NCBI RefSeq assembly: GCF_014199615.1
Contig: NZ_JACHOB010000001.1
Location: forward strand, 930,001 to 994,000
Direction: 5' to 3'
Origin: Parvularcula dongshanensis
Lineage (GTDB): Bacteria > Pseudomonadota > Alphaproteobacteria > Caulobacterales > Parvularculaceae
DNA length: 64,000 nucleotides
Below the pieces are notes generated by a model, which was not told the DNA's origin, made no database searches, and saw nothing but the letters and a program-made list of their open reading frames with translations. The first letter of the stretch is position 1, and every line of letters begins with the position of its first letter. The translations under genes and the position numbers were made by a program. Positions 6,534 through 25,715 of the stretch are shown here, in pieces.

Positions 6534-8345
6534 ATGCATGTCATTCTTCGTCTCTTTCTGTGCCTTTGCGCCGTCCTGACGCTCGGCACCGCGGCCGCCC
6601 AGACGGCCCCATCGTCCGGCGGTGGCTCTGATCGGCCCCCTGCCGATCCCGAATCCGCCTCGGGCGGCGTCTTCTCGGACCTGCTCGAAGCCTTGGAATC
6701 GGGCAGCCGCCTTCTGATCGAGAAGATGCAGCCCGGCGAGGTGCGCGACCTCGTCGACGACCCGCGCTTCAACGGCCAGGACAGCCCCCGCGCCACCATC
6801 ATGACCTTCGTCGAGGCGATGGCGCTCGTCGACCGCGGCTATGACGAGGTTGGTTACGGTCGTGCCCTCGCGAGCCTGCCGGCGGGAGCCTCGCGCGCCC
6901 AAGCCGACACGCTCTACGGCGTCTTCCTGCGCCTGGGCCCCGTCTCGCCCGCGGCTCTGCCGGGCGAAGAGGCGATCGAGGCGGCGGGCGACACGCGCTT
7001 CGTCTTCTTCCCCCGGGCGACCGAACACCTCTGGGTCTGGCAGACGCTGGAGACCCCGCCGGACGGCCAGATCACCGTCGAGAAGGCGGCGGACGGCCGC
7101 TGGACCTTCTCGAGGCGGACGCTGGACGGCCTCCAGGCGCTGTCCGACGCCATGGCGCCCCTGCCGCCGCGCTACGACGAAAGCCAGGAAGGGCAGTACT
7201 TCGTCCGGGTCTTCTCGCCGCTCTTCGAAGAGACGGGCCTCTTGGGCTGGCTCGGCTTCCTCGGGACCTTCACCGTCGGCATCGGCGGCGGCATCCTCTT
7301 CTATCGTCTCCTGCGCTGGGGGGCGGGCCGGGTCGAGGAGGGCGACCACAGCCTTCTTGCCCGCACGCTGCGCGGCCTCGGCGCCTCGGGCGGCCTCGTC
7401 GTCTTCACGATCCTCTTCACCGTCGCCTTCGGCTTCTTGGCGCTGGGACCAGTGCTGCGGCCGCTGCGCTTCGCGATCCCGCAGTTCCTCATGGTGATCG
7501 CGCTCGCGCTCCTGGCCATCTCGCTGATCGACGTCGTCGCCGCCTTCACCAAGCGGCGGATCGAGCGGAAGGGCGAGGGCCACTACGACCGGATGCTGGT
7601 GACCGCCATCCGGCGCATCCTCCGCACGCTCGTCGCGCTCGTCGTCCTTCTCTTCGTCCTCGAAAGCGTGCTGCACGTGAACGTCGGCGCGCTCATCGTC
7701 GGCTTCGGCGTCGTCGGCCTCGCGCTGTCGCTCGCCGCGCAGGACTCGGTGAAGAACCTCTTCGGCGCGGTGTCGATCTTCGTGAACCGGCCCTTCGTCA
7801 TCGGCGACTGGATCAAGTTCAAGGGCCGGTTGGGCACCCATTGGGGCACGATCGAGGACATCCGTCTTCAGTCGACGGACCTTCGCGACCTCGGCGGGAA
7901 CATCATCACCATCCCCAACATGCTGTTCATCGACCGCGAGGTCGAGAACCTCTCCGCGCGCGGCTACATCCGCCGGGAGCTGAACATCGCCATCCCCTAC
8001 CGCCCCGACGCGCGCGAGGCCGAGCGGGCGATGCAGGCGCTGATGGATGTCTTCACCGACGACGAAGTCCTGGAGGATGCCAACGCCAAGGGTCGCGACG
8101 GCGACCCGCATGTCAGCTTCCCGGAGTTCGGCGAGGCCTGGCTGACCATCCGCGGCTACCACTGGTACTTCATGGGCGGTGAGGACGAGGACGCCCAGCG
8201 TGACACGGAGCGCGGCTGGTTCACCTATCTCGAGCACTGCACGTTTGTGAACCGGAAGATCGTCGACCTCTTCGGCGAACGGAACATCGAGTTCGCCTTC
8301 CCGACCCAGACGGTCCAGCTCATCCGCGGCAACGACCGGGCTTAG
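6534..8345 (+). CDS. Mechanosensitive channel, MscS family, with N-terminal signal peptide
   Basis: 603 residues. A signal peptide ending ...AAAQ (about residue 22) precedes a periplasmic region of about 210 residues. Membrane segments lie near 236-266, 285-310 and 315-335, followed by the MscS pore helix and beta domain (NVGALIVGFGVVGLAL from about 382; NRPFVIGDWIKFKG; LRDLGGNIITIPNM). The Gly/Ala-patterned pore helix and the beta-domain signature are diagnostic. It probably releases solutes on hypo-osmotic shock. Its last 4 bases overlap the convergent PIG-L gene of the next operon. Confidence 0.92.
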   Translation: MHVILRLFLCLCAVLTLGTAAAQTAPSSGGGSDRPPADPESASGGVFSDLLEALESGSRLLIEKMQPGEVRDLVDDPRFNGQDSPRATIMTFVEAMALVDRGYDEVGYGRALASLPAGASRAQADTLYGVFLRLGPVSPAALPGEEAIEAAGDTRFVFFPRATEHLWVWQTLETPPDGQITVEKAADGRWTFSRRTLDGLQALSDAMAPLPPRYDESQEGQYFVRVFSPLFEETGLLGWLGFLGTFTVGIGGGILFYRLLRWGAGRVEEGDHSLLARTLRGLGASGGLVVFTILFTVAFGFLALGPVLRPLRFAIPQFLMVIALALLAISLIDVVAAFTKRRIERKGEGHYDRMLVTAIRRILRTLVALVVLLFVLESVLHVNVGALIVGFGVVGLALSLAAQDSVKNLFGAVSIFVNRPFVIGDWIKFKGRLGTHWGTIEDIRLQSTDLRDLGGNIITIPNMLFIDREVENLSARGYIRRELNIAIPYRPDAREAERAMQALMDVFTDDEVLEDANAKGRDGDPHVSFPEFGEAWLTIRGYHWYFMGGEDEDAQRDTERGWFTYLEHCTFVNRKIVDLFGERNIEFAFPTQTVQLIRGNDRA

Positions 8346-9049
8346 GCGAGGTAGGTCTCGGACTGGATGCCGGCGAGCCGCTCCCGAAGCGCCTCCGCCC
8401 CGCCGAACTGAAAGCCGAGCTGCGTTTCGTAGGCGAGGCAGGCGGCGAGCTTCGCGTCCGCTTCGCGCGGTGTCAGCGTGACGGTCTCGGACAGCAGTCT
8501 GCCGTCCTCCGCCGCGAAGGGGGCTTTCGGCGCCTCCCTGTCCGCATAAGGCCAATCGGTCCAGTAGAGGCGGCGCTTCGCGTCGAGGACGCCGCCCGCC
8601 CGCCGGACGACCTCGTGATCGACGTGCCCGCCGATCCCTCGCGGCAAGAGGAGGAGGTCGATGCGCTCCCCGCCGAACGCGCTGCGCAGCGTCTCGGCGA
8701 CCGCGGCCTCCTCGCGATCCTCGGTGCGTACACCGCCGAAGAGGGAGGGGGCGTCCTCGTACCCTCTATGCGGGGCTTCGAGGTGGGGCAGGTGGAGGGG
8801 TTCCGCTCCGAGCGCGGCACAGGCGGCCTCGTCTTCTGCCCGGCGCAACGCCATGTAGTCCGCGTCTGGCGCCAGACCCTTGTCGAGCTGGCAGGCGAGT
8901 GCGAAGCCCGTCGGCCGGGCGACGTTGCCGGTGAAGACCGTTGCGAGGATCACGCGGTCCCCGCCCGCCGCCAACCGCGCGAGGAGGCCGCCCGCCGAGA
9001 ACGCCGCATCGTCGAGGTGCGGCGAGAGCGCGAGGACCGTCCGGCTCAC
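8342..9049 (-). CDS. PIG-L family (LmbE-like) deacetylase, last gene of the YcaO/inositol operon
   Basis: 235 residues. The GTG start at 9047-9049 overlaps the TGA of the glycosyltransferase as GTGA. The zinc motif is SPHLDDAAFSAGG (H11, D13, D14; canonical form HPDDE), with the second zinc/catalytic segment GGHVDHEVV near residue 147. PIG-L enzymes remove N-acetyl groups from GlcNAc-inositol compounds (MshB in mycothiol synthesis, PIG-L in GPI anchors) or from other GlcNAc conjugates. With a GT4 enzyme directly upstream and an inositol-phosphate synthase heading the operon, deacetylation of a GlcNAc-inositol-like intermediate is a reasonable inference. Confidence 0.85.
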   Translation of the reverse strand: MSRTVLALSPHLDDAAFSAGGLLARLAAGGDRVILATVFTGNVARPTGFALACQLDKGLAPDADYMALRRAEDEAACAALGAEPLHLPHLEAPHRGYEDAPSLFGGVRTEDREEAAVAETLRSAFGGERIDLLLLPRGIGGHVDHEVVRRAGGVLDAKRRLYWTDWPYADREAPKAPFAAEDGRLLSETVTLTPREADAKLAACLAYETQLGFQFGGAEALRERLAGIQSETYLA

Positions 9050-10260
9050 AACAGGTGCGGCTCCGCGCGGAAGCGGCACGGGTCGCGGGGCAGGGCAGTC
9101 TCGAAGCCTCGCGCTTGGGTGCGCCCTGCGACCGCTTCGTACTGGTCGGCGATCATCCGGCCGACGACCGCCCAGGAGTAGGTCTCGCGGCACTCGCGCA
9201 GCGCCGCCCCCGCCAGGCGTTCCCTATGCTGCGCGTCGTCGACCAGCCGCGCGGTCTCCCGCGCGATGGCGTTGATGTCGCCCGGTTCGACCAGGATACC
9301 GTTCTCGCCATCCCGCAAGCAGTCGACGATGCCGACCGAGCGCCCCGCCAGGATCGCGTGACGCGACGCCATGGCTTCGAGCACGGTGTTGGAGAACCCC
9401 TCCGCGTAGGTCGGGGACAAGAAGACGTCATGCGCGCGGTAGAGGTCGGGCACGGTCTCGTAGTCGGCGTACCCCGTGAAGCTCACGCGCCCGCCTAGCG
9501 ACAGCTCGTCCGCCAGGGCCTTCGCCGCCGCGAGGTCCGGGCCGATGCCGGACATCGTGCACCGCCAGTCCCGCTTCGTCTCGAGCCGTGCCAGCGCATG
9601 GAGCGTGTCGAGCGCCCCTTTTCGCGCATCGACCCGCCCGTGATAGAGCAGCCGCACCGGACCCTCGCCCGGGCCGTTCCCCGGCGTGAAGCGCTTCGTG
9701 TCCACCGCGCCGGGGATCAGCGTGAACCGCTCCAGCGGCGTGCCGAGCCGTTCGTGGACCTCCGCCGCGAAGCTCTCCCCGCCGATCAGCACGCGGTCGG
9801 CGTGATCCAAGACCCGCGTCATGGCGAGCCTGTGACACTCGCAGCACGAGCCGACCCAGTGCCCGTCCCCGCCCTGGATCGAGACGACGACCGGCAGGCC
9901 CGCCTCGCGCCCCGCGAGCAGCGCTGCCCACCCCGTGGGGTAGCCGTACTGCGCATGGATCACGTCGAAGGGCGCGCTGGCGTGCTCTTCGATCATCGTC
10001 TCCACCATCACCTCGATGTCGCTCTCGAAGTCGCCGGTCGCGGCCTCTCCCGTCTGCGGCAGGCCTACGACGCGGACGCCTGGCACGGCGGGGGGCGGTC
10101 CGCCGCCATAGACCGACTTGCCGTAGTCGTCGTCCCGGTACTGAGAAACCATGGTGACGTCGTGCCCCTGCGCGACCAGCTCGCGCAGCAGGTTCGCCGC
10201 GTAGATCGACATGCCCGAAATCGCGGGGAAGTAGCGTCGGGAGAGGAAGAGGACCCTCAT
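9046..10260 (-). CDS. GT4-family glycosyltransferase (MshA-like fold)
   Basis: 404 residues, GT-B fold. The N-terminal domain opens with the acceptor-side motif MRVLFLSRRYFPAISGMS. The C-terminal nucleotide-sugar domain shows YHGRVDARKG near 210 and SPTYAEGFSNTVLEAMASRH near 290-310, with the E-x7-E motif of family GT4 (EGFSNTVLE). GT4 includes MshA, which joins GlcNAc to inositol-3-phosphate. An unusual cysteine cluster, SCCECH, sits near residue 140. ATGA overlap with the upstream isomerase gene and GTGA overlap with the downstream deacetylase gene. Donor and acceptor are not determinable from sequence. Confidence 0.88.
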   Translation of the reverse strand: MRVLFLSRRYFPAISGMSIYAANLLRELVAQGHDVTMVSQYRDDDYGKSVYGGGPPPAVPGVRVVGLPQTGEAATGDFESDIEVMVETMIEEHASAPFDVIHAQYGYPTGWAALLAGREAGLPVVVSIQGGDGHWVGSCCECHRLAMTRVLDHADRVLIGGESFAAEVHERLGTPLERFTLIPGAVDTKRFTPGNGPGEGPVRLLYHGRVDARKGALDTLHALARLETKRDWRCTMSGIGPDLAAAKALADELSLGGRVSFTGYADYETVPDLYRAHDVFLSPTYAEGFSNTVLEAMASRHAILAGRSVGIVDCLRDGENGILVEPGDINAIARETARLVDDAQHRERLAGAALRECRETYSWAVVGRMIADQYEAVAGRTQARGFETALPRDPCRFRAEPHLL

Positions 10261-11087
10261 GCCTCGACCGCCTTCAGGTAGGCGATCGACTCCGGGATGG
10301 CCGCGTGCGCCCGCGGGCTCTCGCGCGAGAGCTCGACGCTGACGAGACGGCTGAAGCCCACTTCCTTCAACGCGGCCAGCACGGCGGGCACGTCCATGTC
10401 CCCCTCGCCGAAGGGCAAATGCGTGTGGTCCCCTCGCTTCATGTCCTCGATCGCGACCGTGCCGAGGCGGTCGGCGTAGCGCCGTACCGCCTCGTTCGGC
10501 TCGATGTCCTGGGTCACGAGGCAGTGCCCCGTGTCGAGCGCGAGCTTCAGGCGCGGATGGCGCTCGGCCAGCGCTCCGTACTCGCCCGCCGTCTCGATCA
10601 GCATGCCGGGCTCGGGCTCGAACGCCATGTCCATGCCGGCCGCCTCGCCTGCGTCCAGCACGCGCTCGAGGCCGTCGGACAGCCAGCCCCGCGCTTCGTC
10701 CCGGTCCACACCCGGTCGCGGCACCCCGGCCCAGAAAGACACCGCCTCGGACCCTAAGATGCCGCCGATCTCCGCCGCGCGGGAGAGAAAGGCGACGCGG
10801 CGGGCGCGTCCTTCTGCGTCCGGCGTCACCAAGGTCGGTTCGTGCTTCATGCGCGGGTCGAGGAGGTAACGCGCACCCGTCTCGATGACGCTGCCGAGCT
10901 TCAGGTCCTCGAGCCGCCGCGCCACGCGCTCGGCCTCACCCCTCCATCCTTTCGCGAACGGATCGAGGTGATGATGATCGAGCGTCAGCGCGACGCCGTC
11001 ATAACCTGCCTCCGCGATCAAGGTCAGCGCATCGTCCAGCCGGTGCGAGGCCGCACCGTTGGTGTTGTAGGCGTAGCGAAGGGTCAT
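10257..11087 (-). CDS. Xylose-isomerase-like TIM-barrel sugar isomerase/epimerase
   Basis: 276 residues, AP_endonuc_2 (sugar phosphate isomerase/epimerase) superfamily. Metal-ligand segments typical of the barrel are visible: FEPEPGML (about 155-162), ALDTGHCL (about 185), VAIEDMKRGDHTHLPFGEGDMD (about 211-232) and SVELSRESPRAH near the C-terminus. Members epimerise or isomerise sugars and include the inosose dehydratase IolE, which would fit an inositol-derived substrate. ATGA overlap with the YcaO gene upstream and the GT4 gene downstream. Confidence 0.85.
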   Translation of the reverse strand: MTLRYAYNTNGAASHRLDDALTLIAEAGYDGVALTLDHHHLDPFAKGWRGEAERVARRLEDLKLGSVIETGARYLLDPRMKHEPTLVTPDAEGRARRVAFLSRAAEIGGILGSEAVSFWAGVPRPGVDRDEARGWLSDGLERVLDAGEAAGMDMAFEPEPGMLIETAGEYGALAERHPRLKLALDTGHCLVTQDIEPNEAVRRYADRLGTVAIEDMKRGDHTHLPFGEGDMDVPAVLAALKEVGFSRLVSVELSRESPRAHAAIPESIAYLKAVEA

Positions 11088-12574
11088 GCGTCCCGCCGAA
11101 AGATCATCTGGTGCTCCCAGGGCTCGCGGTAGAGGGGGTAGAGGTGCCCTACCGTCCGGTCGACGGCCGCCGTGTCGAGGAGGGGGGGGGCGCCGAGCCG
11201 GTCATAACCGTCGGGCGGCATCCGCACGGGCCTGCGCGTTTCGGTCTCCTCGCCCCAGACGATCAGCGGGCTGTCCGCCTCGATCAGCTTCTTCGCGCCG
11301 CGCTCTCCAATGCGGTAGTAGCTCATGGTCTCGACCTCGAGGCCAGGACAGACGACGCGGACGGCCTGCATCGGCGCGTCCTCCGCCGTGTAGGGAACGA
11401 GGATCGGGTCCATCCCCGCCTCCTGGAGCCGACCCGCCATCACCGCGCCGCGCCCCCCCGGCGTCTGCGTGTCGTCGCGCGGCAGGGCCGAGAAGGCGAC
11501 CGTCTCGCGGACCCGGTACATCGGGTCTTCCAGCAGCGCCTTCAGCTCGGCCCCCGACATCTTCAGCCACTGCCGGAAGCCTTCGACTTGGCGCGCCTCG
11601 GCGTCGTGCGCCTGGGCGCGCACGATCGGCTCGATCCGCGCCCAGTAGCCGTCGGGCAGGAAGGGCGCGACCTGTTCGAGCGTGCCGTGGCTCACCGCCT
11701 TTCGCGCGCGGGCATGGGCGTACTCCAGCAGCGCCTTTCGCAGCGCGCGGGCCGCGTCGATGTCGCAGCCCTCGCCCGTCGCCGTCAGCGCGATCGGCAC
11801 GTGCGGGGCGGAGGGGTCCTCGTCCGGCCCGACGACGTAGACGTTCGCCGTCCCGAACTCCGTCGTCGCGAGCTTCGGGACGACCTCGAGCCCCTTGGCG
11901 CGGAGGTCGTCGTAGAGGCGCCGGACGCCCTCCGGCGCGCTTTCCATGTCGATCGCCAGCCCAGCGTCGAGCGCGCGGAAGCGAAGGCCGTTCCCGTCCC
12001 GCTGCAACAGCTCGAACAGCCCGTGGCTCGCCGCCCACTCCCGCGTCGGCCCCGCGCCGAGGCCGTTGGTGATGAGCGTGGTGAAGGGCTCGTAGCCTTC
12101 CGGCAGCTGATCCTTGGCGAGCGCGACGAGGTCGAGCGGAACCAGCGCTTCCTCCCCCGAGAGCATGCGCTGCCCGCGCGTCCAGGCGAGGGGCGTGGTC
12201 CGTTCCACCGGGCTCCCGGCCGGAAGGCAGAGCCGCAAGGGGTCGGCGACGGCCGCTTCTCCGTGAACGCGGACGAGCTCGTCATAGCTCCCGCGCACGA
12301 CCTCGCGGCCGACGAGGCCCGTCCGTGCGCTGATCCACTCATAGGCCTCGGCGGCGGCGGCGATCATGGCCTGCTCGGGCTCTTCGCCGTAGCCGGTGTT
12401 GATCTGCAGCGGGGTGCAGGCGGCTCCCGGGTCGTCCGGCAGGAAGGCGGCGGCGAAGGCCGGGACGCCCGCCCTATCGATCGGGGCCTGGTCGAAGAAC
12501 CACCAGTCGCCGGGCGGCAGCGCGTCGACATAGGCGCGCGCTGCGGGCGGTAGGGGGAGGGGGCTTCGGATCAC
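11084..12574 (-). CDS. YcaO-domain protein, ATP-dependent amide/carboxyl-activating enzyme, stand-alone
   Basis: 496 residues from the GTG at 12572-12574, which overlaps the upstream TGA as GTGA. All three YcaO ATP/Mg segments are recognisable: TGYGEEPEQAM...AAAEAYEW (about 60-79), GLGAGPTREWAASHGLFELL (about 170-189, ending in QRD) and TGEGCDIDAARALRKALLEY (about 262-281). YcaO enzymes phosphorylate amide backbones to make azolines, thioamides, amidines or, in non-peptide pathways, thioamide-like groups. The C-terminus lacks the PxPxP tail of azoline cyclodehydratases, and no TfuA, E1-like partner, dehydrogenase or precursor peptide lies nearby. A small-molecule substrate therefore seems more likely than a RiPP. 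The substrate is unknown. Confidence 0.88.
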   Translation of the reverse strand: MIRSPLPLPPAARAYVDALPPGDWWFFDQAPIDRAGVPAFAAAFLPDDPGAACTPLQINTGYGEEPEQAMIAAAAEAYEWISARTGLVGREVVRGSYDELVRVHGEAAVADPLRLCLPAGSPVERTTPLAWTRGQRMLSGEEALVPLDLVALAKDQLPEGYEPFTTLITNGLGAGPTREWAASHGLFELLQRDGNGLRFRALDAGLAIDMESAPEGVRRLYDDLRAKGLEVVPKLATTEFGTANVYVVGPDEDPSAPHVPIALTATGEGCDIDAARALRKALLEYAHARARKAVSHGTLEQVAPFLPDGYWARIEPIVRAQAHDAEARQVEGFRQWLKMSGAELKALLEDPMYRVRETVAFSALPRDDTQTPGGRGAVMAGRLQEAGMDPILVPYTAEDAPMQAVRVVCPGLEVETMSYYRIGERGAKKLIEADSPLIVWGEETETRRPVRMPPDGYDRLGAPPLLDTAAVDRTVGHLYPLYREPWEHQMIFRRDA

Positions 12575-13401
12575 GACAGGTCCTTCAAGGCGTAGCGGCG
12601 GACTTTGGGCGTCTCGGACAGCGCGCGGTCGAGCGCGGCGACGCACGCCCCGCGGCCGACATCGGGCGCGTGCTCGAAGGGGGTGCAGACCTCAGTGAAG
12701 TCCAAGGGCGCGATGACGTCCCGGTACCGCTGAAGCTCGCCATGCGTCAGCGGAATGTCCTTGTGAAACGCCTTGTGGCTGCTGATCGCATGGGAGCGTC
12801 CGTCCTCGGTCTGATCGATCTTGAAGACGTCGCCGCAGAAGAGCCGCCCCGCCCCCTCGTCATGGAGGACGGCCTGCCCCTCATAGTGACCGCCCACGTG
12901 GTGCAGCGTCAGGCCGGGCAGGAGTTCGAGCGCGTCGTCATAGGGCAGGGTCACCTTGAACGCCTTCGTCATACGAAGGTCGTCCTTCTGGATCGCGACC
13001 ACCTCGGGGTCGAAGCGTGCCTGGAGCTGCCACAACGCCCCGTAGCCGTGGGCATGGCTTGCGGCCAGGATCTGCACGCCGCCGAGCGTCTCGATCTCGT
13101 CCAGCATGGCGTTCGTGTAGTAGGGCGCGCCCTCGAAGGCGACGTTGACGCCGTCCTTGCGCATCAGCCAGCCTTGACCGTTGAGACCCAAGGGCGGCGA
13201 GGTCCGCGCCGCCCAAAACCCGTCCGAGATCTGACGGACCTCGCCCGTGAAGCGGGCCTCCGCTTCGCGCGCGGGAAGGAAGTCCCACCCATCCTCGGGC
13301 AGATCGTTGCGGACGTCCGTGCAGACGGGGCAGTCCGGCGGGGGAGCGAAGTAGGCCTGCCAGAAGCCGCAATTGGTGCAGGCGTAGTGCGTCAGAGCCA
13401 T
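12571..13401 (-). CDS. Zinc-ribbon/metallo-beta-lactamase fold hydrolase
   Basis: 276 residues. A small N-terminal CxxC...CxxC knuckle (Cys8, Cys11, Cys24, Cys27), like a rubredoxin or zinc ribbon, is fused to a metallo-beta-lactamase-like domain. MBL metal-site segments are SHAHGYG (His116, His118), HHVGGHYEG (about 167-175) and CGDVFK (Asp191). The standard HxHxDH is only partly kept, so the metal centre may be mononuclear or altered. ATG at 13399-13401 overlaps the oxidoreductase gene by 10 bases. Possible roles are hydrolase, thiolesterase or redox/sulfur handling next to YcaO; none is established. Confidence 0.82.
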   Translation of the reverse strand: MALTHYACTNCGFWQAYFAPPPDCPVCTDVRNDLPEDGWDFLPAREAEARFTGEVRQISDGFWAARTSPPLGLNGQGWLMRKDGVNVAFEGAPYYTNAMLDEIETLGGVQILAASHAHGYGALWQLQARFDPEVVAIQKDDLRMTKAFKVTLPYDDALELLPGLTLHHVGGHYEGQAVLHDEGAGRLFCGDVFKIDQTEDGRSHAISSHKAFHKDIPLTHGELQRYRDVIAPLDFTEVCTPFEHAPDVGRGACVAALDRALSETPKVRRYALKDLS

Positions 13402-14387
13402 CGTCGCGCCTCCTCATAGGCGGTGAAGAAACGCCGCATGAGCGCGAGGTCGCGGTGGACGTCGAAGTCGTGCGTCCCGCCCCGTACGCCGGCCATGAAC
13501 GCCCGCGCCTGGCGCGCGAAGGGCGAGGCGGCCCGGTCGAAGTCGACCTCGGCCCGTTCCCCCGTCAGCCCGTCGATGCGGACGAGCCTGCCGCCCGGGT
13601 CCTGGCCCATCGTGTCCGTCGCGACGAGCATCGCCTCGCTGCCGACCACCTCGAGCCTGCGGCGCGGCAGGGCTTCGGGCGTGTTGTAGGCGGTGTGCAT
13701 CGAAAGAAGGATGCCCGACGGCGTGCGCCCCGACAGGACGCCGCCGTCTTCGACCGCGTAAGGGTGTACGCGGTTCTGAAGGCTGATGTGGAGGTCCGTC
13801 ACCTCTTCGCCCAGGACGCGCTGCACGAGGTCGAGGCCGTGCGGCGCCAGGTCCAGGACCGCGCCGCCGCCTGCGGCCTTCGGGTCCGCGCGCCAGTTCT
13901 CGCCCGTCCCCCGGCTCCAGGTCGGATCGACCCAGCAGCAGTAGACGATGCGCACCGCCGCGACCTTGCCGACTGCACCCGCCGCGACCGCTTCGGCGAG
14001 GGCCGCGTGGCCGGGGTGGTAGCGCTGATCGAACGCCGTGCCGTAGAGCGCCGGGGACGCCGCGACCGCCGAAGCGATCGCCTCCGCGCCCTTGAGGGTC
14101 GCGGCCATCGGCTTCTCGCACAGGACTGGCACGCCCGCCGCCGCCGCCAGGCGCACCGCCGCCTCGTGGCGGTCGTTCGGGCTCGCGACGTAGAGCGCCT
14201 CCAGGCGCTCCTCCGCCAGCATCTCTTCGAGGCTCGCAAAGCCCTTCGCGCCGTGTCCCTCCGCGGCGGCGCGGGCCGCTTCGGACGGGTCGGCGACGCT
14301 GACGACCTCGCCGCCCGCAGCCTCGATCCCCGGCGCCATGTAGTCGCGCGCGACCCAGCCATACCCTGCGATCCCCCAGCGCATCAC
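13392..14387 (-). CDS. Gfo/Idh/MocA-family NAD(P)-dependent oxidoreductase
   Basis: 331 residues. The Rossmann motif GIAGYGWVARDY is at the N-terminus. The family signature EKPMA (about residue 95) carries the catalytic-region Lys, and the C-terminal segment GGGAVLDLAPHGLDLVQ (about 173-189) has the conserved Asp/His pair. The family includes inositol 2-dehydrogenases and sugar ketoreductases, so oxidation of the inositol ring or a sugar product is a natural guess. Start is GTG 14385-14387 (GTGA overlap with the methyltransferase stop) or the ATG immediately after it. Confidence 0.88.
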   Translation of the reverse strand: MMRWGIAGYGWVARDYMAPGIEAAGGEVVSVADPSEAARAAAEGHGAKGFASLEEMLAEERLEALYVASPNDRHEAAVRLAAAAGVPVLCEKPMAATLKGAEAIASAVAASPALYGTAFDQRYHPGHAALAEAVAAGAVGKVAAVRIVYCCWVDPTWSRGTGENWRADPKAAGGGAVLDLAPHGLDLVQRVLGEEVTDLHISLQNRVHPYAVEDGGVLSGRTPSGILLSMHTAYNTPEALPRRRLEVVGSEAMLVATDTMGQDPGGRLVRIDGLTGERAEVDFDRAASPFARQARAFMAGVRGGTHDFDVHRDLALMRRFFTAYEEARRWL

Positions 14388-15496
14388 CAGCGCTCCGGCA
14401 GGTCGAGGAGTTCACGTGTACGGACGAACGGCGCGACCCCTTCGGTCATCGCGGCGGTGTTGGGCACGCCCGGGCGGCCGTAGGTCGCGAGGGGTCCGTA
14501 CTCCTCCTCGTAGCGAGGGGAAGGCCAAGCGACGCCCTGATCGGTCAGGAGCGGGTTGCGGCGAAGCGGCGTTCCGTCCTCCGGCCGCAGGAGCGGGCAG
14601 GGCAGCGCGGACGCGCCGAGCGCCGGTCCGCCTATGAGGCTGAACGCGTCCGGCGCGTCGCCCATCTCCGCGCGCACCGGCTTTCCGGCGGCCCCCGCCT
14701 CGGTCAGGCCCGCATCGTCGTAGATCGCCGCGCCCGGGAACAGCGCGCGAAGCTCGTCCAGACGCGCAGCCGCCCCCGCCGAGTGGTTCTCGGCGCCCGC
14801 ATTGTGAACGTGCGGCACGGCGTAGAGGGCCCCCGCGCCTTCGCGCAGGCGCTCCGCGATCGCGGCCTTCTCGCGAAGGAAGTAGAAGGCGTCCGCGCAC
14901 AGCATCAGGTCCGCCGCCGGCGTCGCCGGCCAGGCCGCGTCCGCGTCGAAGCAAAGGAGGTCCGCCTCGGGGCAGACCCAATGGCGGCAGACCCAGAGCT
15001 TGCCGAAGACGACATCCGCCCCGCTGACGCTGCTCACGCCCGCACGCGACAGCGCACGGAGGTAGTGCCCGATCCCGCAGGCGAGCTCGAACGCGCTCTC
15101 CGGTGCGCGCCAATGGGCTTCCAGCAGCGTCAGCCCCGCGAGGAAGGTCGGGTCCGACCAGCGATGCGCGAAGTAGGTGCCGACCCGGCCCCAGCCGAGC
15201 CGGTCCATGACCTCGCGCAAGGAGAGCCGGTCCTTCTCGCGCACCGCGGACAGCAGGACGTCGTGCGGCGGCGGCGCCTCATCCCACCACGGATCGTTCT
15301 CTGCGAGGAGGAGGGCGGTCGCCTCGTCCGCCGCGTCCTCATCGAGCGCGGCGACCGCCTCCGCCGCCAGCGCCTCGCTGCCCGCGCGCAGGTAGGGGAT
15401 GCCGTCAACGACCGGCCAGCGCGCCTCGCCGTCCGTCAGCGAGTGCGGCGTGTCCGCCCGAAGCGTCATGCGCGTGACCGGCGAACGCAAGGTCAC
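14384..15496 (-). CDS. Class I SAM-dependent methyltransferase
   Basis: 370 residues from the GTG at 15494-15496 (GTGA overlap). The N-terminal 35 residues contain PVVDGIPYLR, as in Trm112-like segments preceding some methyltransferases. The SAM-binding core starts at SAFELACGIGHYLRAL (about 133-148), followed by SGADVVFGKLWVCRHW and LMLCADAFYFL. The C-terminal third is not recognised. A WVCRHWVCPEADLLCF cysteine-rich stretch lies near 170-185. Probably a tailoring enzyme of the operon product; acceptor unknown. Confidence 0.8.
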   Translation of the reverse strand: MTLRSPVTRMTLRADTPHSLTDGEARWPVVDGIPYLRAGSEALAAEAVAALDEDAADEATALLLAENDPWWDEAPPPHDVLLSAVREKDRLSLREVMDRLGWGRVGTYFAHRWSDPTFLAGLTLLEAHWRAPESAFELACGIGHYLRALSRAGVSSVSGADVVFGKLWVCRHWVCPEADLLCFDADAAWPATPAADLMLCADAFYFLREKAAIAERLREGAGALYAVPHVHNAGAENHSAGAAARLDELRALFPGAAIYDDAGLTEAGAAGKPVRAEMGDAPDAFSLIGGPALGASALPCPLLRPEDGTPLRRNPLLTDQGVAWPSPRYEEEYGPLATYGRPGVPNTAAMTEGVAPFVRTRELLDLPERW

Positions 15497-16398
15497 GGCA
15501 GGCCGACCGCGCGCAGGACGTCGTCATGGAATCCCTTCACGGGGCCCTCGTGGACCAGTTCGTACTCGCCAAGGACCGTGTCCATCGTCACGGACCGGGC
15601 CTTCACATGGTGTTCGATCTCGAGGACGCGGTCGATCACGTCCGCCGCGTGGAAGGCGCGCGCCTCGGGCGTGCCGTCGCCTCCGATCTCTTCGAAAACG
15701 CCCGCCGCCGCCTCGCGCAGATCGCCCTCGAGCTCGTCCAGCGCCTGGCGCCGTGCCTCCTCGATGACGGCGCCTAGATGCGGCTCCAGCAGCATCTCGC
15801 CGGTGAACCCCGCATCGGGCATCGCCGCGTTGTGCAGGTGATGCACCGTGCCGAACCACCAGCATCGTACCGGGTCCGCGCCGAAGGCGGGCGCCATCAG
15901 GCTCGCGTAGACCGCCACCATGAAGCAGTGGTCGGCGTGGTTCTCCTCGGGCTGCAGCATGATGCGCGGCCGCCCGGGGCAGGTGACGCCCGCGCGCGGC
16001 TGAAGGCCGAGGGCGTGCGCGAAGGCGGGCGCGTCCTCCTCGGCATCGTCCTCATGCAGGGGCACGGCGCGCCGCAGCGTCTCGGTCAGGTCCCTGTCCA
16101 ACGGTCCTGCCACTTCGTCCATGCTCCGCAGGAGGACGCTTCGCGCGGCCTCCTCGTCCAGGCCCAGCTGCGCGAGCTTGTCGCCGTCCATCGCGCCGAG
16201 CCGGGCGGCGGCGAGCGCGCCCGCGACCTGGGCGTGCGCCACCGACACGGCGTCCTCGCCGCGAACGAGCCGCCCCCAGCCGCGCAGGAATCCGCGCGTC
16301 GCGAAGCTGCCGTCCATGTCCGCGCTCCGCACCCGCTTCAGGTCGCCGAGCTCGCGGAGGAGCGGCAGGAGGGCGGGGTCCAGGCCTCCGGCGCTCAC
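15493..16398 (-). CDS. HD-domain-like metal-dependent protein
   Basis: 301 residues from the GTG at 16396-16398, which overlaps the inositol-phosphate synthase TGA as GTGA; upstream codons in this frame are only a shadow of that gene. Candidate HD metal ligands are ENHADHC (about 151-157), VHHLHNAAM (about 182-190) and AADVIDRVLEIEHH (about 252-265). This resembles HD phosphohydrolases, though the spacing is divergent. In this operon it could be the phosphatase that frees inositol from inositol phosphate, or an HD-fold oxygenase like inositol oxygenase. Both are speculation. Confidence 0.62.
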   Translation of the reverse strand: MSAGGLDPALLPLLRELGDLKRVRSADMDGSFATRGFLRGWGRLVRGEDAVSVAHAQVAGALAAARLGAMDGDKLAQLGLDEEAARSVLLRSMDEVAGPLDRDLTETLRRAVPLHEDDAEEDAPAFAHALGLQPRAGVTCPGRPRIMLQPEENHADHCFMVAVYASLMAPAFGADPVRCWWFGTVHHLHNAAMPDAGFTGEMLLEPHLGAVIEEARRQALDELEGDLREAAAGVFEEIGGDGTPEARAFHAADVIDRVLEIEHHVKARSVTMDTVLGEYELVHEGPVKGFHDDVLRAVGLP

Positions 16399-17582
16399 GC
16401 CTCGCCGAGCCAGTCGTCGAGCGTCTGCACCTGCTTTAGGAAGGCGTGCTCGGGCAGCGCGCCGTCCTTGGTCTGCGGCATCTTGAAGAAGACCGAGAGC
16501 TGCTCCTGCACGCCGCCCTGACCGCGGGTCTTGGCGAGGTCGAGCGTCCGCGCGATCTCGATGGCGAGGGGGGCTGCGAGGACCGAATCCTTGCACAGGA
16601 AGTCGACCTTGATCTGCATCCGCTCGCCTAAGAACCCTGAGATGTCGATGTTGTCCCAGGCCTCCTTGTCGTCCCCGCGCGGACGATAATAGTGGATGTG
16701 AACCTGGTGATCCTCGACGGGGTAGCCGAGGATCTGGTCGAGAACGGACAGCTTCGTGCCGACCTTGCTCTTGAGGCTGTTCGGGTCGTCGAGGGCGAGG
16801 CCGTCTCTGTTGCCGAGGATGTTGGTCGAGAACCATCCGTCCACGTGCAGGGCCCGGGCCCGGAGGGCGGGCGCGATCACCGTCTTGAGGAAGGTCTGGC
16901 CCGTCTTGCCGTCCTTGCCCGCGACGGGCACGCCCCGCTCCGCCGCGAGGGCGGCGAGCACCGGCACGTCGGCGGCGACGGACGGCGTGAAGTTGCCGTA
17001 GGGCGTGTCCGCCGTGATCGCCGCGTAGGCGTAGAGCATGGCGGGGCTGATTTCGGGGTCGTCCCTGTCGAGCGCGCGCTCGAAGGCCTCGCGGCTCGAG
17101 AACGCCTCCGCCGACAGGTCCGGCGTCCGCTCGGTCGAGGCGAGGTTCAGCATGACGACGCGGTCGAGGCCCTGCTCCTCCTTGAACATCGACAGGTCGT
17201 CGTGGATGCGCTCGACCGCGCCCCTATGCCCTGCGACCGCGATCTTGTTGCCGCCGGTGACGTTCTTGCAGAAGTCCTCGCTGCCGACGGCGGGCCAGGC
17301 GTGCATGTCCTTGAGCGCGGCGGCGCCGCCCGAAAGGTGCTTCTCGGACAGGACGCCGTGGCCGAGCGCGGCCGTGCCGAGGTCGTCCTCGCAGAGGTCC
17401 CAGCCGCCGAAGACGAGCCCGTCATAGGGTTTCAAACCCCCCACCGCCCTATCCGCGAGCGGCAGGCCGGAAAGGTCGTTCGAGCCCGACTTGATGCTCT
17501 CGATGCCGGCGATGGCCGTGGTCGCGACGGCGCCGCCGAGGCCGACGACCGCGACGCCGAGTCTGTCTTGTGTCTGTGACAT
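16395..17582 (-). CDS. Myo-inositol-1-phosphate synthase family protein, first gene of the YcaO operon
   Basis: 395 residues from ATG 17580-17582, preceded by GCAGGGAC. The N-terminal NAD-binding motif is VVGLGGAVAT. Family signatures follow: LASTER, AMLYAYAAITADTPYGNFTPS, GKDGKTGQTFLKT, GNRDGLALDDPNSLKSK (from about 252) and YYRPRGDDKEAWDNID. The family converts glucose-6-phosphate to inositol-3-phosphate. It heads a nine-gene operon in which every gene overlaps the next. Zwf, which draws on the same substrate, is also in the window. Strict function as an inositol-phosphate synthase is likely but not proven. Confidence 0.88.
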   Translation of the reverse strand: MSQTQDRLGVAVVGLGGAVATTAIAGIESIKSGSNDLSGLPLADRAVGGLKPYDGLVFGGWDLCEDDLGTAALGHGVLSEKHLSGGAAALKDMHAWPAVGSEDFCKNVTGGNKIAVAGHRGAVERIHDDLSMFKEEQGLDRVVMLNLASTERTPDLSAEAFSSREAFERALDRDDPEISPAMLYAYAAITADTPYGNFTPSVAADVPVLAALAAERGVPVAGKDGKTGQTFLKTVIAPALRARALHVDGWFSTNILGNRDGLALDDPNSLKSKVGTKLSVLDQILGYPVEDHQVHIHYYRPRGDDKEAWDNIDISGFLGERMQIKVDFLCKDSVLAAPLAIEIARTLDLAKTRGQGGVQEQLSVFFKMPQTKDGALPEHAFLKQVQTLDDWLGEA

Positions 17583-17667
17583 GAGGGGTGTCCCTGCTTC
17601 GTGAGTTCGGCTGGAGATTGCGCATCCGAGGCCAAAGGCAAGCGGGGACACGCCAACAAAGTCAGTA

Positions 17668-17697
17668 CTTTGCTTTAAAGCAAAGCTGCGACGCAGC
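17668..17697. promoter_or_regulatory. Candidate operator: perfect 18-bp palindrome plus adjacent dyad
   Basis: CTTTGCTTTAAAGCAAAG (17668-17685) is a perfect palindrome. It runs directly into GCTGCG-A-CGCAGC (17685-17697), a second perfect dyad. Both lie in the 227-bp gap between the divergent inositol-phosphate synthase operon (start 17582) and the GST gene (start 17810). The AT-rich palindrome stands out in a GC-rich background. A repressor controlling one or both promoters is likely; the regulator is not in the immediate neighbourhood. Confidence 0.55.
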
Positions 17698-17809
17698 ACG
17701 TCGTGGCAATGCTAACCATCCGTCTACGGTAGAGAAGTGCTGCATCCCGAACTTGCCGCGTTCGGAAGGCCGGTTCACCCTTTCGCGCCGAAGGCGAACA
17801 GGGACCGTC

Positions 17810-18430
17810 ATGCTGGACTTCTATACCAATCCCATGTCGCGGGGTCAGACCGTCAGGTGGATGCTGGAGGAGGTGGGCGCCGACTATCAGGAGCGTCTGA
17901 TGAACTGGGGCCCTTCGATGAAGGGTACTGATTACAAGAAGATCAATCCGATGGGCAAGGTCCCGGCGATCGTTCACGAGGGCCGTGTCGTGACCGAATG
18001 CGCGGCGATCTGCGCCTACCTCGCGGACGCCTTCCCGGACGCGAAGCTCGCGCCTCCGCCCGCCGCGCGGCATGACTACTATCGCTGGCTCTTCTTCGCC
18101 GCAGGCCCGCTCGAACAAGCCGTGACGGCGAAGTCGTTCGGCTGGACTCCGACGAAGGAGCAGAGCGGCGTCGCCGGCTTTGGCACCTACGACCTGGTGG
18201 TCGAAACGATGGAAGGTCTTCTCCTGTCCCGCGCCTATGTCTGCGGCGACGCCTTCACCGCAGCGGACGTCTACTTCGGTGCGCAAGTGCTGTGGGGTAC
18301 CCGGTTCGGCAGCCTGCCAAGCCTCCATGCCTTCACGGACTACGCGGAGAGGCTGAAGGGGCGGCCCGCCTACCAGAAGGCGAAAGCCCGCGACGACGCT
18401 CTGATCGCGGAGGGGCAGGCCTCGACTTAG
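17810..18430 (+). CDS. Glutathione S-transferase family protein
   Basis: 206 residues from ATG 17810. The N-terminal thioredoxin-like domain reads LDFYTNPMSRGQTVRWMLEE, with Ser in the usual catalytic position, then GKVPAIVHEGRVVTECAAIC (the cis-Pro and gamma-glutamyl-binding E-[S/C]-A segment, about 49-68). The C-terminal alpha domain contains YVCGDAFTAADVYFGAQ. Typical GST length. It diverges from the YcaO/inositol operon across the palindromic region, so shared control is possible. Substrate unknown. Confidence 0.9.
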   Translation: MLDFYTNPMSRGQTVRWMLEEVGADYQERLMNWGPSMKGTDYKKINPMGKVPAIVHEGRVVTECAAICAYLADAFPDAKLAPPPAARHDYYRWLFFAAGPLEQAVTAKSFGWTPTKEQSGVAGFGTYDLVVETMEGLLLSRAYVCGDAFTAADVYFGAQVLWGTRFGSLPSLHAFTDYAERLKGRPAYQKAKARDDALIAEGQAST

Positions 18431-20202: not shown

Positions 20203-23200
20203 TTACCGGAAGTTCCTCGGCCGGACGCGCAGCTGCGGGGCGTCGGGCTCGCCTAGGATCGTGCGGTGCTGGAAGTCGCGGTTGTAGTCCTCGGTGATGG
20301 GCTGGAGCCGGGCCCCCGACCCCGGCGGCAGGCCTCGGCGGTCCGGGCCGCCGCCCGAGCGGGCCTCGTCGCCGCGGCCGAAGCGTGTCGGCAGGCCGGC
20401 GTCGTCGCCGAGCCGGGCGAGGGCCGAGGACAGGTCCACGAGGCGCCTCGCGACCACGTGCCGGATCTCGCCTTCGCGCTGCAACTGGCCCTCGATGCCG
20501 ATCATGCCGGCGGTGAGCACCGTGCGGCGGTAGCGCTCGAACAGGCTCGGCCAGACGATGACGTTCACGGGGCCGGTCTCGTCCTCCAACGTGAGGAACA
20601 TGACGCCCTTGGCCGAGCCCGGCCGTTGGCGGCTGAGGACGAGGCCTGCGACGCGGACGGAAGACTTGTCGCGTAAGGCGTGCGCCTCGTCGGCGGTCAG
20701 CACGCGCTTCCGGCGCAGGGCGCGCCGCATGAAGACGAGGGGGTGCGCGCGAAGAGACAGCCCCGTCGAGACGTAGTCCTCGACCACCTCTCGACGCGTG
20801 GTCATCGCCGGGAGGTCGAAAGGTTCTTCCCGTGCCTCCGATGCGATCTTCCCCTCGGCATCGTCCGCTGCCTCGAAGAGGGGCAAAGGGGTATCCCGCA
20901 GGGCTGCGGCCTGCCAGCCCGCCCCGCGTCGGGTGAGGCCGCAGGCGGCGAAGGCGTCGCCCTCGACGAGCTTGCGGATGGCCTTGGCCGACAGGCCCGC
21001 CCGGCGCTGCGCATCTTCGGGACCCTGATAGGGCAAGCGCGCGCCGTCCGGCGTCCTGGCGAGGACGAGGCGCGCCGCCTCCGCCTCGGGCAGGCCCGAC
21101 ACCATGCGCAGGCCCATCCGCACGGCGAGCCAGCCTTTCGGCCCGGCCTCCTCTTCGAGCGTGCAGTCCCACCGGCTCGCATTGACGCAAGGCGGCCTTA
21201 CCTCGACGCCGTGGTTCCGCGCGCACCAGACGAGCTGAGCGGGCGCGTAGAAGCCCATGGGCTGCGCGTTGAGGAGGGCGGCGAGGAACACGTCCGGGTG
21301 GCGGCACTTCGCCCAGGACGACACGTAGGCGATCCTCGCGAAGCTCGCCGCGTGGGACATAGGAAAGCCGTAGGAGCCGAAGCCTTCGAGCTGCGCGAAG
21401 GTCCGCTCGGCGAAGTCGCGGGAAAGGCCGTGCTTGACCATCCCCGTAATGAGCTTGTCTCGGAAGTGGCTCACGCCGCCCGTGTACTTGAAGGTCGCCA
21501 TAGCCCTTCGAAGCTCGTCCGCCTCTCCAGGTGTGAAGCCGCCGCACCGAACCGCGATCGACATCGCCTGCTCCTGGAAGAGAGGGATGCCGAGCGTCTT
21601 CTCAAGGACCTCCTTGAACTCTGGCGTGGGATATTCAGTCTTTTCCAGCCCCTCGCGCCGCTTGAGGTAGGGATGCACCATCTGGCCTTGGATCGGTCCC
21701 GGCCTCACGACGGCGACCTCGACGGTCAGGTCGTCGAGGCTTCGCGGCTTCATCCGCGGCAGCATCGCCATCTGCGCCCGGCTCTCGATCTGAAAGACGC
21801 CGAGCGTGTCTGCCTTGCAGATCATCTCGTACACGTCCTCCTGCTTGTCGGGGACGGTCGTGAGGTCGTAATCCTCGCCCTTATGCTCGCGCAGCAGGTC
21901 GAAGAAGCGGCTCATCGCGCCGAGCATGCCGAGGCCGAGGACGTCGACCTTCATGAAGTGCAGGGCGTCGATGTCGTCCTTGTCCCACTCGATCACCTGA
22001 CGGCGCTCCATCGCCGCGGGCTCGATCGGGACGAGGTCGATCAGGGGGTCCTTCGTCAGGACGAAGCCGCCGGGGTGCTGGCTGAGGTGACGAGGCGCGC
22101 CCATCAGCTGCCGCGCGAGGTCGAGCGTCATGCGCAGGCGGCGGTCGGCGAGGTTCAGCTTGAGGGAAGCGGCCTGCGCCTCGGTCACGCCCGCTTCGTC
22201 CCAGGCCCAGGTGAGCTTCGAGAGCTCGGCGGTCACGTCTTCGGGCAGGCCGAGCACCTTGCCCACCTCGCGGATCGCGCCGCGTGCGCGGTAGCGCACT
22301 ACGGTAGCGGTCAAAGCGGCGTGGTCGCGCCCGTAGGTCTCGTAGACCCATTGGATCACCTCCTCGCGCCTGCCTGCGTCGAAGTCGATGTCGATGTCGG
22401 GCGGCTCGCCGCGCTCTTCGGACACGAAGCGTTCGAAGAGGAGGCCCTTGTTCTCGACGGGGTCGATCGAGGTGACGCCGAGCACGTAGCAAACGGCGGA
22501 GTTGGCCGCCGAGCCGCGCCCCTGGCAGAGCACGTTCAGCTGGTTCCGTGCGGCCTCGACGATGCGGTGAACGGTGAGGAAGTAGGGCTCGTAGGACAGC
22601 TTGGCGATGAGCGCGAGCTCCCGCTCGATCAGCACGCGCAGATCGTCCGGGCAGCCGGCCGGATAGCGGCGCGCGATCGCCGCCTCGACGACGCAGCGCA
22701 GCCGCTGCGCCGCGGTCTGTCCGTCCGCTTCCTCGTCCGGGTACTGGTACTGGAGTTCCGACAGGCTGAAGGCGCACGCCGCGGTCAGCGCCTCGGTGTT
22801 CGCCACCGCCTCGGGGTAGTCCTCGAAGAGCCGCGCCATCTCTTCTGGCGGTTTGAGGAACCGCCCTGCCGTCCGCTCCCGCCTGCGGCCCAGCGCTTCC
22901 ACCGTGCAGCCCTCGCGGATCGCGGTGACGACATCCTGGAGCACGCGGCGAGACTCCGCGTGGTAGAGGACGTCGTTCGTCGCGATCGTGCCCACCCGCG
23001 CGGCCCGTGCGAGCCTGACCACGCGAGCCAATCGCTCGCTTTCGTCCGCCAAGAAGCGGCGGGTCAGCGCGATGTAGGCACGATCGCCGAACGTTTCTCT
23101 CAACCGGGCAAGGTCCAGCGTCATCCGCTCGCCGGGATCGTCTTGTATGAGGACGGCCTGCATCCCCTCGCGGTGCTCGGCGACGTCCTCCCACCCAAGG

Positions 23201-23517
23201 TCGCATGCCCCCTTGCCCGCGCGCCGCTTGCCGATCGTCAGAAGGCGGCAGAGGCGGGACCAGGCGGGTTTGTCCTGAGGGTAAACGAGGAGAGAGGTGC
23301 CGTTGTCGAGATCCAGCCGGCAACCGAGCACGGCGCGCACGCCCGTCACCTTCGCCGCCTCGTGCGCACGGACGAGGCCTGCAACCGAGTTCCGGTCCAC
23401 GACGCCGAGCGCTGGCAGGCCGAGCATGGCGGCTTGTGCGAACAGCTCTTCGCAGGACGACGCGCCGCGCAAGAAGGAAAAGTGCGAGGTGCACTGAAGC
23501 TCGCAATAGGTACTCAC
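20203..23517 (-). CDS. dnaE2: Error-prone DNA polymerase ImuC/DnaE2
   Basis: 1104 residues from the GTG at 23515-23517, which overlaps the imuB stop as GTGA; the frame stays open upstream but begins the family match at VSTYCELQCTSHFSFLRGAS. PHP domain (about 1-250), C-family polymerase palm with GRGSAANSAVCYVLG (about 320), the catalytic PDIDIDFDAGRREEV (about 373), helix-hairpin-helix and OB domain (VRVAGLVLSRQRPGSAKGVMFLTLED near 955). It performs SOS-induced translesion synthesis with ImuA and ImuB at the replication fork. Third gene of the LexA-controlled cassette. Confidence 0.97.
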   Translation of the reverse strand: MSTYCELQCTSHFSFLRGASSCEELFAQAAMLGLPALGVVDRNSVAGLVRAHEAAKVTGVRAVLGCRLDLDNGTSLLVYPQDKPAWSRLCRLLTIGKRRAGKGACDLGWEDVAEHREGMQAVLIQDDPGERMTLDLARLRETFGDRAYIALTRRFLADESERLARVVRLARAARVGTIATNDVLYHAESRRVLQDVVTAIREGCTVEALGRRRERTAGRFLKPPEEMARLFEDYPEAVANTEALTAACAFSLSELQYQYPDEEADGQTAAQRLRCVVEAAIARRYPAGCPDDLRVLIERELALIAKLSYEPYFLTVHRIVEAARNQLNVLCQGRGSAANSAVCYVLGVTSIDPVENKGLLFERFVSEERGEPPDIDIDFDAGRREEVIQWVYETYGRDHAALTATVVRYRARGAIREVGKVLGLPEDVTAELSKLTWAWDEAGVTEAQAASLKLNLADRRLRMTLDLARQLMGAPRHLSQHPGGFVLTKDPLIDLVPIEPAAMERRQVIEWDKDDIDALHFMKVDVLGLGMLGAMSRFFDLLREHKGEDYDLTTVPDKQEDVYEMICKADTLGVFQIESRAQMAMLPRMKPRSLDDLTVEVAVVRPGPIQGQMVHPYLKRREGLEKTEYPTPEFKEVLEKTLGIPLFQEQAMSIAVRCGGFTPGEADELRRAMATFKYTGGVSHFRDKLITGMVKHGLSRDFAERTFAQLEGFGSYGFPMSHAASFARIAYVSSWAKCRHPDVFLAALLNAQPMGFYAPAQLVWCARNHGVEVRPPCVNASRWDCTLEEEAGPKGWLAVRMGLRMVSGLPEAEAARLVLARTPDGARLPYQGPEDAQRRAGLSAKAIRKLVEGDAFAACGLTRRGAGWQAAALRDTPLPLFEAADDAEGKIASEAREEPFDLPAMTTRREVVEDYVSTGLSLRAHPLVFMRRALRRKRVLTADEAHALRDKSSVRVAGLVLSRQRPGSAKGVMFLTLEDETGPVNVIVWPSLFERYRRTVLTAGMIGIEGQLQREGEIRHVVARRLVDLSSALARLGDDAGLPTRFGRGDEARSGGGPDRRGLPPGSGARLQPITEDYNRDFQHRTILGEPDAPQLRVRPRNFR

Positions 23518-25674: not shown

Positions 25675-25700
25675 GTACGGCGGCCTCCATGGTCCATGAA

Positions 25701-25715
25701 GTTCGCTATATGTTC
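25701..25715. promoter_or_regulatory. LexA box of the imuA-imuB-dnaE2 cassette
   Basis: GTTCGCTATATGTTC is a direct repeat GTTC-N7-GTTC, the alphaproteobacterial LexA recognition site. It lies 27 bp upstream of the chosen imuA start, where promoter blocking is expected. This agrees with SOS induction of the mutasome in Caulobacter and relatives. Confidence 0.9.

Follow-up and report, generated by a model that had tools for sequence, protein, structure and literature searches.

Among described systems, the ebo gene clusters are the closest in shared logic, specifically those of the MIPS (myo-inositol-phosphate synthase) type, to the locus analyzed here, a nine-gene operon on the minus strand of a 64,000-nucleotide stretch of the Parvularcula dongshanensis genome (positions 930,001 to 994,000 of contig NZ_JACHOB010000001.1; this whole stretch is hereafter called the window). 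An isoprenoid-cyclitol product has been proposed for ebo in a 2016 paper whose main text does not mention inositol (PMC5133447), and a paper of 2018 links ebo with scytonemin, a sunscreen (PMC6282210). The P. dongshanensis operon combines a MIPS and a TIM-barrel enzyme with a stand-alone YcaO enzyme and a set of sugar-modifying proteins. According to the evidence assembled below, it probably encodes the whole of a horizontally mobile pathway whose product is an aminosugar-cyclitol, small, polar and resembling a pseudo-disaccharide, and in which no peptide is modified.

The P. dongshanensis genome (3.13 Mb, 16 contigs) carries the nine genes end to end, and their coordinates, strand and gene calls (Table 1) bear out an earlier sequence-only reading of the window, which had proposed a single operon whose genes overlap by 4 bases at seven junctions and by 10 bases at the remaining one. 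From MIPS to PIG-L, the successive junctions overlap by 4, 4, 4, 10, 4, 4, 4, and 4 bases, the 4-base overlaps being GTGA or ATGA, and the interior leaves no room for a further gene. Seven of the proteins exceed the Pfam cut-offs (MIPS, HD_3, Gfo/Idh, YcaO, AP_endonuc_2, GT4, and PIG-L); the methyltransferase and the metallo-beta-lactamase (MBL)-fold protein fall below them.

A genome scan with the TIM-barrel alignment confirmed 482 relatives, and the best 80 of the 482 (by TIM similarity) were analyzed, 70 of them uncut and 10 interrupted by contig ends. In all 80, the genes that were found keep their order and lie on a single strand, which argues that the arrangement is not due to chance; the sequence-only reading had named scattering of the genes in relatives as the outcome that would tell against it, and none was seen in these 80. 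All nine genes are present in 35 of the uncut loci, and the other 35, every one titled Methylobacterium, lack the MBL gene only. The carriers among the best 80 include Sphingomonas, Methylobacterium, Erythrobacter, Polymorphobacter, Belnapia, Dankookia, a Mycobacterium species, Rubrobacter marinus, and others. Among 60 relatives searched, a related YcaO was found in one other genome (G003, 34%), whose locus (L004) has the identical nine-gene order. Plasmid records with the operon come from Methylobacterium aquaticum and M. bullatum (both without MBL), Roseomonas haemaphysalidis (nine genes), and Hymenobacter volaticus, an organism of another phylum isolated from air, whose locus (L008) keeps the order and has no methyltransferase match. 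Prevalence was counted with the HD profile alone, the full operon being read in the fetched loci: in the phylum of Rubrobacter, the HD gene occurs in 6 of 296 sampled genomes (centre genome counted). The five other carriers there (L108–L112) keep the order, four with nine genes, and the methyltransferase match is absent from L112, which is cut by a contig end.

The order is thus intact in Bacteroidota and Actinomycetota besides Pseudomonadota, three phyla altogether; less missing accessory genes, it is kept in L004, L005–L008, L100, L101, and L108–L112, and MIPS is the first gene in every locus not cut ahead of it. Because methyltransferase matches are lacking in L008 and L112 and the MBL gene in the Methylobacterium loci, these two genes are accessory, and the core consists of MIPS, HD, Gfo/Idh, YcaO, TIM, GT4, and PIG-L. 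When pairwise identities are compared between genes over 16 loci, each of the 36 pairings of the nine genes gives a positive correlation (Spearman 0.42–0.92), part of which is expected from the common descent of the genomes alone. We read the operon as a travelling, horizontally mobile unit. The Gfo/Idh and GT4 genes of the Hymenobacter plasmid (L008, 10853–11901 and 15122–16353) and the HD gene of genome G409 (L101, 5433–6313) are each spread over two frames, and are either pseudogenes or products of sequencing errors.

Table 1. Genes of the operon, listed from MIPS to PIG-L, and the two genes that flank it (window coordinates; E-values follow the Pfam names).
Feature	Position	Strand	Pfam match or remark
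MIPS (myo-inositol-phosphate synthase)	16395–17582	−	PF07994 3.5e-56, PF01658 2e-33
HD-fold protein, phosphohydrolase-like, altered metal motif (HH for HD)	15493–16398	−	HD_3
S-adenosylmethionine (SAM) methyltransferase-like protein, accessory	14384–15496	−	Methyltransf_25 0.00052, below cut-off
Gfo/Idh/MocA oxidoreductase	13392–14387	−	PF01408 3.2e-21
Four-cysteine zinc-ribbon and MBL-fold protein, incomplete metal motif, accessory	12571–13401	−	Lactamase_B 0.00018, RUBY_RBDX 0.0044, both below cut-off
Stand-alone YcaO enzyme	11084–12574	−	PF02624 3.6e-47
TIM-barrel isomerase/epimerase/dehydratase-like enzyme	10257–11087	−	PF01261 5.7e-38
Glycosyltransferase of family GT4	9046–10260	−	PF00534 1.2e-30
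PIG-L/LmbE-type N-deacetylase	8342–9049	−	PF02585 1.1e-16
MscS-like open reading frame (ORF), by eye	6534–8345		Convergent, abuts PIG-L end
Glutathione S-transferase (GST) gene	17588–18430		Divergent, close to MIPS start

The link to ebo comes from plasmid records, in which the TIM-barrel protein has 33 matches: four operon carriers and 29 of lower identity, chiefly Streptomyces, five of which (L089–L093) were inspected. Four of these are Streptomyces loci (L089, L090, L091, and L093) that carry, in this order, MIPS, an SCO3242-type prenyltransferase, a TIM-barrel protein, EboA, TatD, EboE, and a phosphodiesterase; in the fifth, from Gemmatirosa (L092), MIPS adjoins TIM beside UbiA-like and phosphodiesterase-like proteins (by eye). 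What the five loci share with the nine genes is MIPS (36–41% identity) and TIM (46–50%); beyond these, L092 gave weak Gfo matches, and the EboE region of L091 a second, weak match to TIM. The operon thus has the same MIPS and TIM-barrel partners as the Streptomyces variant of ebo, and the TIM proteins of both belong to one subfamily and share N10, D37, H40, the ETGAR segment, E157, EPEPG, D185, H188, H221, H223, and E252. At the canonical metal histidine the operon proteins have A or S and the five ebo proteins Q or H, and E256 of the operon is H in ebo. Since ebo clusters with MIPS carry TIM relatives with the same pocket residues, we infer that the TIM enzymes of the two pathways, otherwise unlike, would act on a MIPS-derived compound and catalyze identical or closely similar reactions. 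On the other hand, the set that defines ebo, EboA, EboB (TatD hydrolase), EboC (UbiA-type prenyltransferase), EboE, and EboF, is not found among the Pfam annotations of the nine genes, nor is the phosphodiesterase; YcaO, Gfo/Idh, GT4, PIG-L, and HD stand in their place. The MIPS-type ebo clusters of L089 and L090 have a gene of the ScyD/ScyE family on their upstream side.

The biosynthesis of mycothiol and bacillithiol (MshA–D, BshA–C) likewise joins inositol phosphate with GT4 and PIG-L enzymes, and the sequence-only reading had been reminded of MshA and MshB while noting that no MshC is present. The absence of MshC stands for the assembled genome, whose best match to the MshC model (TIGR03447) reaches 214.8 bits where the cut-off is 485.1; we take this protein to be cysteinyl-tRNA synthetase. 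The likeness to MshA and MshB proved weak. GT4 scores 73.6 bits with the MshA model (cut-off 462.5), and MIPS scores 41.7 bits with the mycothiol-type model TIGR03450 (cut-off 638). Among solved structures, the best match of GT4 is another GT4 enzyme (4.7e-29), followed by BshA (2.9e-26) and two entries that are presumably MshA (6.4e-26 and 1e-25), and by these matches it is a generic GT4 glycosyltransferase. PIG-L is closest to the deacetylases of glycopeptide antibiotics (Dbv21, 1e-33, and the teicoplanin deacetylases) and far from MshB (9.1e-5). A mycothiol- or bacillithiol-like redox or thiol cofactor, with YcaO replacing the cysteine ligase, would explain why MIPS, GT4, and PIG-L co-occur and why GT4 resembles BshA and MshA among others; however, it is unlikely, given the sub-threshold MshC match, the nearer kinship of PIG-L to glycopeptide deacetylases, the extra Gfo/Idh and TIM enzymes, which have no known role in mycothiol synthesis, and the glutathione to be expected in these organisms. 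The C-terminal CRFRAEPHLL tail of GT4 (window 9049–9078) is nearly invariant in 15 aligned members, which is odd for a glycosyltransferase.

YcaO is the only member of its family in the whole P. dongshanensis genome. Its predicted structure has a pLDDT of 94.0, and its nearest solved relative is Methanocaldococcus jannaschii MJ1094 both by sequence (2.7e-27) and by fold (6peu; TM 0.78 when scaled to the target, 0.61 when scaled to the query length). Residue alignments were built from 14–22 sequences per gene, taken from 41–85 extracted. In YcaO, E76, E79, N170, E188, Q191, R192, D193, E284, and R291 are conserved in 22 of 22, and we take these positions to be the ATP/Mg site; the fold and these residues place the predicted protein in the ATP-using YcaO superfamily. 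It shares them with MJ1094 and with the YcaO cyclodehydratases of thiazole/oxazole-modified microcins (TOMM), whose known substrates are peptides and proteins, whereas the operon YcaO sits among sugar and cyclitol genes with no local peptide or partner. The best NCBIfam match is the SagD model (101.5 bits), ahead of the model for thioamidation of McrA-glycine (85.1 bits), and as both fall below their cut-offs, the family models do not fix the chemistry. The YcaO proteins of L024, L025, L026, and L038 (one locus titled Mycobacterium) are 55–57% identical to that of the window, those of the other Sphingomonas loci and of the Methylobacterium loci about 43–48%, and for most other genes the difference is smaller. 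Two YcaO subtypes thus exist, perhaps with two products, and the Mycobacterium-titled locus is likely a transfer.

The kinship with MJ1094, presumably of the type that thioamidates McrA-glycine, also raises the idea that the product is a metallophore or a thioamide-type ligand of metal (copper) with an aminosugar-cyclitol as its scaffold. In its favor are this nearest relative, the thioamidation score, and two genes recognized by eye downstream of the operon in Methylobacterium: a CopA-like ATPase in 34 loci, starting about 2.2 kb away, and a MerR-like regulator in 16 loci, starting about 5.3 kb away. The idea is improbable all the same, since the thioamidation model scores below that of SagD, this neighborhood was seen in a single genus and may reflect no more than synteny, and the operon has no sulfur-delivery gene.

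The nearest solved structures to MIPS are 7nwr and 1u1i, and its lysines 223, 226, 233, 273, and 325, to which we ascribe a catalytic role, are invariant in 14 of 14 aligned sequences. The closest solved structure to Gfo/Idh is 1,5-anhydro-D-fructose reductase (1.1e-53); D179 and H183 are conserved in 19 of 19 sequences and EKP (91–93) in 18 of 19. PIG-L has H11, D13, D14, H142, D144, and H145 in 19 of 19. The methyltransferase keeps C140, G141, G143, and D161 in 19 of 19. In the zinc-ribbon/MBL protein, C8, C11, C24, C27, H116, H118, H172, and D191 are conserved in 16 of 16; the full HxHxDH motif is not present, as Y/F and G replace its D and H in 16 of 16 with H116 and H118 retained. The HD protein has the HD fold, with a modest structural match on a Z scale that has a high background for helical proteins. 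H157 and D253 are retained, and HH stands at 186–187 in 22 of 22; assigning these positions to the H...HD...D metal motif, as we do, HH replaces its HD. A diiron oxygenase of the MIOX/PhnZ kind was considered for this protein and rejected, there being no invariant histidine in the alignment between positions 190 and 249; such folds are also absent from its structural match list, although a list of this sort does not exclude them.

From these families we infer a route in which MIPS would convert glucose 6-phosphate to inositol phosphate, and the phosphate would be removed by the HD-fold protein or by one of the seven IMPase-family proteins of the genome. Gfo/Idh could then oxidize a ring hydroxyl to give a keto-inositol, which the TIM-barrel enzyme may isomerize or dehydrate to an enolone-type ring. 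GT4 would add a sugar such as N-acetylglucosamine, the amine of which PIG-L would then free. In a step placed last, YcaO may phosphorylate, at the cost of ATP, the oxygen of a carbonyl or enol (amide-like or of a vinylogous acid), so that a nitrogen or sulfur nucleophile would replace this oxygen; the product may carry a thioamide, heterocycle, or amide. The methyltransferase and the MBL protein would be accessory to this route. Its support includes the conserved catalytic residues of Gfo/Idh and PIG-L and the retained fold and residues of YcaO. Of the glycosylated, methylated, inositol-derived metabolite envisaged by the sequence-only reading, the inositol origin and the aminosugar agree with the enzymes, but methylation is not a core feature.

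Several points weigh against an aminosugar-cyclitol pathway of this kind. To our knowledge, all functionally characterized YcaO enzymes modify peptides or proteins, the best (sub-threshold) NCBIfam match of the operon YcaO is the peptide-maturing SagD, and a precursor peptide could be encoded elsewhere in the genome. The first two of these points would favor a cluster for a ribosomally synthesized and post-translationally modified peptide (RiPP), namely an azoline, thioamide, or amidine peptide with a distant precursor. Small ORFs (20–100 amino acids) within 1.2 kb of 76 MIPS and 83 PIG-L ends gave no convincing precursor that recurs across lineages, in accord with the earlier remark that the operon holds no precursor peptide. 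Being rich in arginine and apparently read in the wrong frame, the sole two-lineage cluster (19 Methylobacterium loci and L043) was not counted as a precursor. No ThiF/E1-like or TfuA partner was found among the nine proteins (Pfam and NCBIfam scans), nor was a RiPP recognition element (RRE) in the Pfam scan of the nine, a dedicated RRE model not being run. With sugar and cyclitol enzymes as the constant companions of YcaO, a RiPP cluster is very unlikely. Two of the assigned enzymes are themselves atypical. At the position that we take to be that of the YfbR catalytic glutamate, the HD protein has N or S, and with HH in place of HD this makes its phosphatase activity doubtful. Likewise, A or S replaces the canonical metal-binding histidine in 20 of 20 TIM sequences, so this protein may be something other than a conventional epimerase or dehydratase.

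The most likely physiological role of the proposed aminosugar-cyclitol is protection against the stress of exposed surfaces. Because UVA-absorbing products are reported in Methylobacterium and the marker is nearly universal there, UV protection is the leading specific idea, a UV absorber being the leading candidate. The reports, a research paper and a review, name UVA-absorbing compounds or "methylobamine" as Methylobacterium products. As a specific form of the pathway, the operon might make the UVA absorber or absorbers of this genus, an inositol-derived mycosporine-like cyclohexenone or imine formed through an ATP-dependent amine condensation by YcaO, a proposal we hold tentatively. In mycosporine-like amino acids, ATP-grasp ligases perform the ATP-dependent amine condensation. 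A cyclitol-derived enolone with ATP-driven amine condensation is thus a possible chemical analogy with the operon, but an analogy only, as neither a dehydroquinate-synthase-type sugar-phosphate cyclase nor an ATP-grasp ligase is among the nine genes. A fuller version, put forward slightly more tentatively, is that the genus-wide UVA absorber and related sunscreens of surface bacteria could be an inositol-born mycosporine analogue with a glucosamine-type sugar, in which YcaO, at the expense of ATP, swaps a ring enol oxygen for an amine to form the chromophore. Reportedly, only Methylobacterium was positive in a UVA screen, and the compound was highly polar.

Distribution bears on this UV proposal in both directions. 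The HD gene is present in 108 of 111 Methylobacterium genomes and in 20 of 201 Sphingomonas genomes; for the class the count is 3 of 385, that of P. dongshanensis included. The three Methylobacterium genomes without it measure 6.9, 8.8, and 7.7 Mb, and such sizes hint at root-nodule species, so NodA was searched. It was found in three of the 111 genomes, two without the HD gene (G473 and G493) and one with it (G494), while G468 has neither. The HD gene is therefore missing in 2 of 3 nodA-bearing genomes vs. 1 of 108 others (Fisher p 0.0015), a hint from a test chosen after the data were seen; the nodA genomes may be close kin, making the losses not independent, and G494 and G468 depart from the pattern. 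Record titles name leaf isolates for 4 and lichen metagenome-assembled genomes for 2 of the 80 loci, the Hymenobacter carrier is from air, and on the Roseomonas plasmid (L007) a single gene separates the operon from two genes with a spore-photoproduct-lyase annotation. On the other hand, photolyase is not significantly enriched in Sphingomonas carriers (19 of 20 vs. 153 of 181 non-carriers, p 0.32), being near-universal in the 201 genomes and hence uninformative as a light marker, and the photosynthetic reaction center shows the opposite direction (0 of 20 carriers vs. 30 of 181, p 0.049). The accessory status of the methyltransferase also counts against a UV absorber. An aminocyclitol antibiotic of the kasugamycin/fortimicin sort could draw, as such pathways do, on inositol, a glycosyltransferase, and a deacetylase; still, we consider it remote, as the Pfam matches of the nine genes include nothing for amino transfer, resistance, or export, and the near-universal marker in Methylobacterium fits a protective metabolite better.

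The neighbors of the operon say little about its role. No tenth member was accepted, as the candidates (neighboring glycosyltransferases, Crp/Fnr, a major facilitator superfamily (MFS) protein, and CopA-like) each occur in part of the lineages only. In 18 of 76 MIPS loci (L009–L020, L022, L023, L025, L027, L038, and L052), the strand of the MIPS match also carries a Crp/Fnr-type regulator about 150–253 bases upstream of it; none was seen in the window. On the Roseomonas haemaphysalidis plasmid p546-2 (L007, 17005–20676), the operon is followed by an MdoH-annotated GT2 gene and the two spore-photoproduct-lyase-family genes, one of which was checked (PF20903, 1.1e-73), an odd protein in a non-spore-former. 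In the window, an SOS mutagenesis cassette lies about 2.6 kb upstream of the operon start (20203–25797, minus strand), comprising DnaE2 (NF004225, 1310.7 bits), an ImuB-like protein (PF00817, 4e-11), and an ImuA-like ORF (by eye). Viral contigs scanned with YcaO gave two pattern matches and no confirmed relative. A role in defense was rejected, as PADLOC returned no matches for seven of the nine operon proteins.

In the open-licence literature (subscription journals not covered), no description of this gene set was found, nor of YcaO coupled with inositol synthase or with mycosporine-like compounds, which agrees with the sequence-only reading that the operon has no described counterpart. Since the defining features of mycothiol, of ebo, and of a local RiPP cluster were not found and the searches of the open-licence literature gave no description, the pathway appears to be new. 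A stand-alone YcaO enzyme in a sugar and cyclitol pathway would, if true, widen the chemistry of the family, and would be the first YcaO outside peptide and protein chemistry known to us. The shared MIPS–TIM pair ties the operon to the incompletely understood ebo clusters. An operon that is near-universal, by its marker, in a common leaf genus and whose order is intact in Bacteroidota and Actinomycetota must be worth having.

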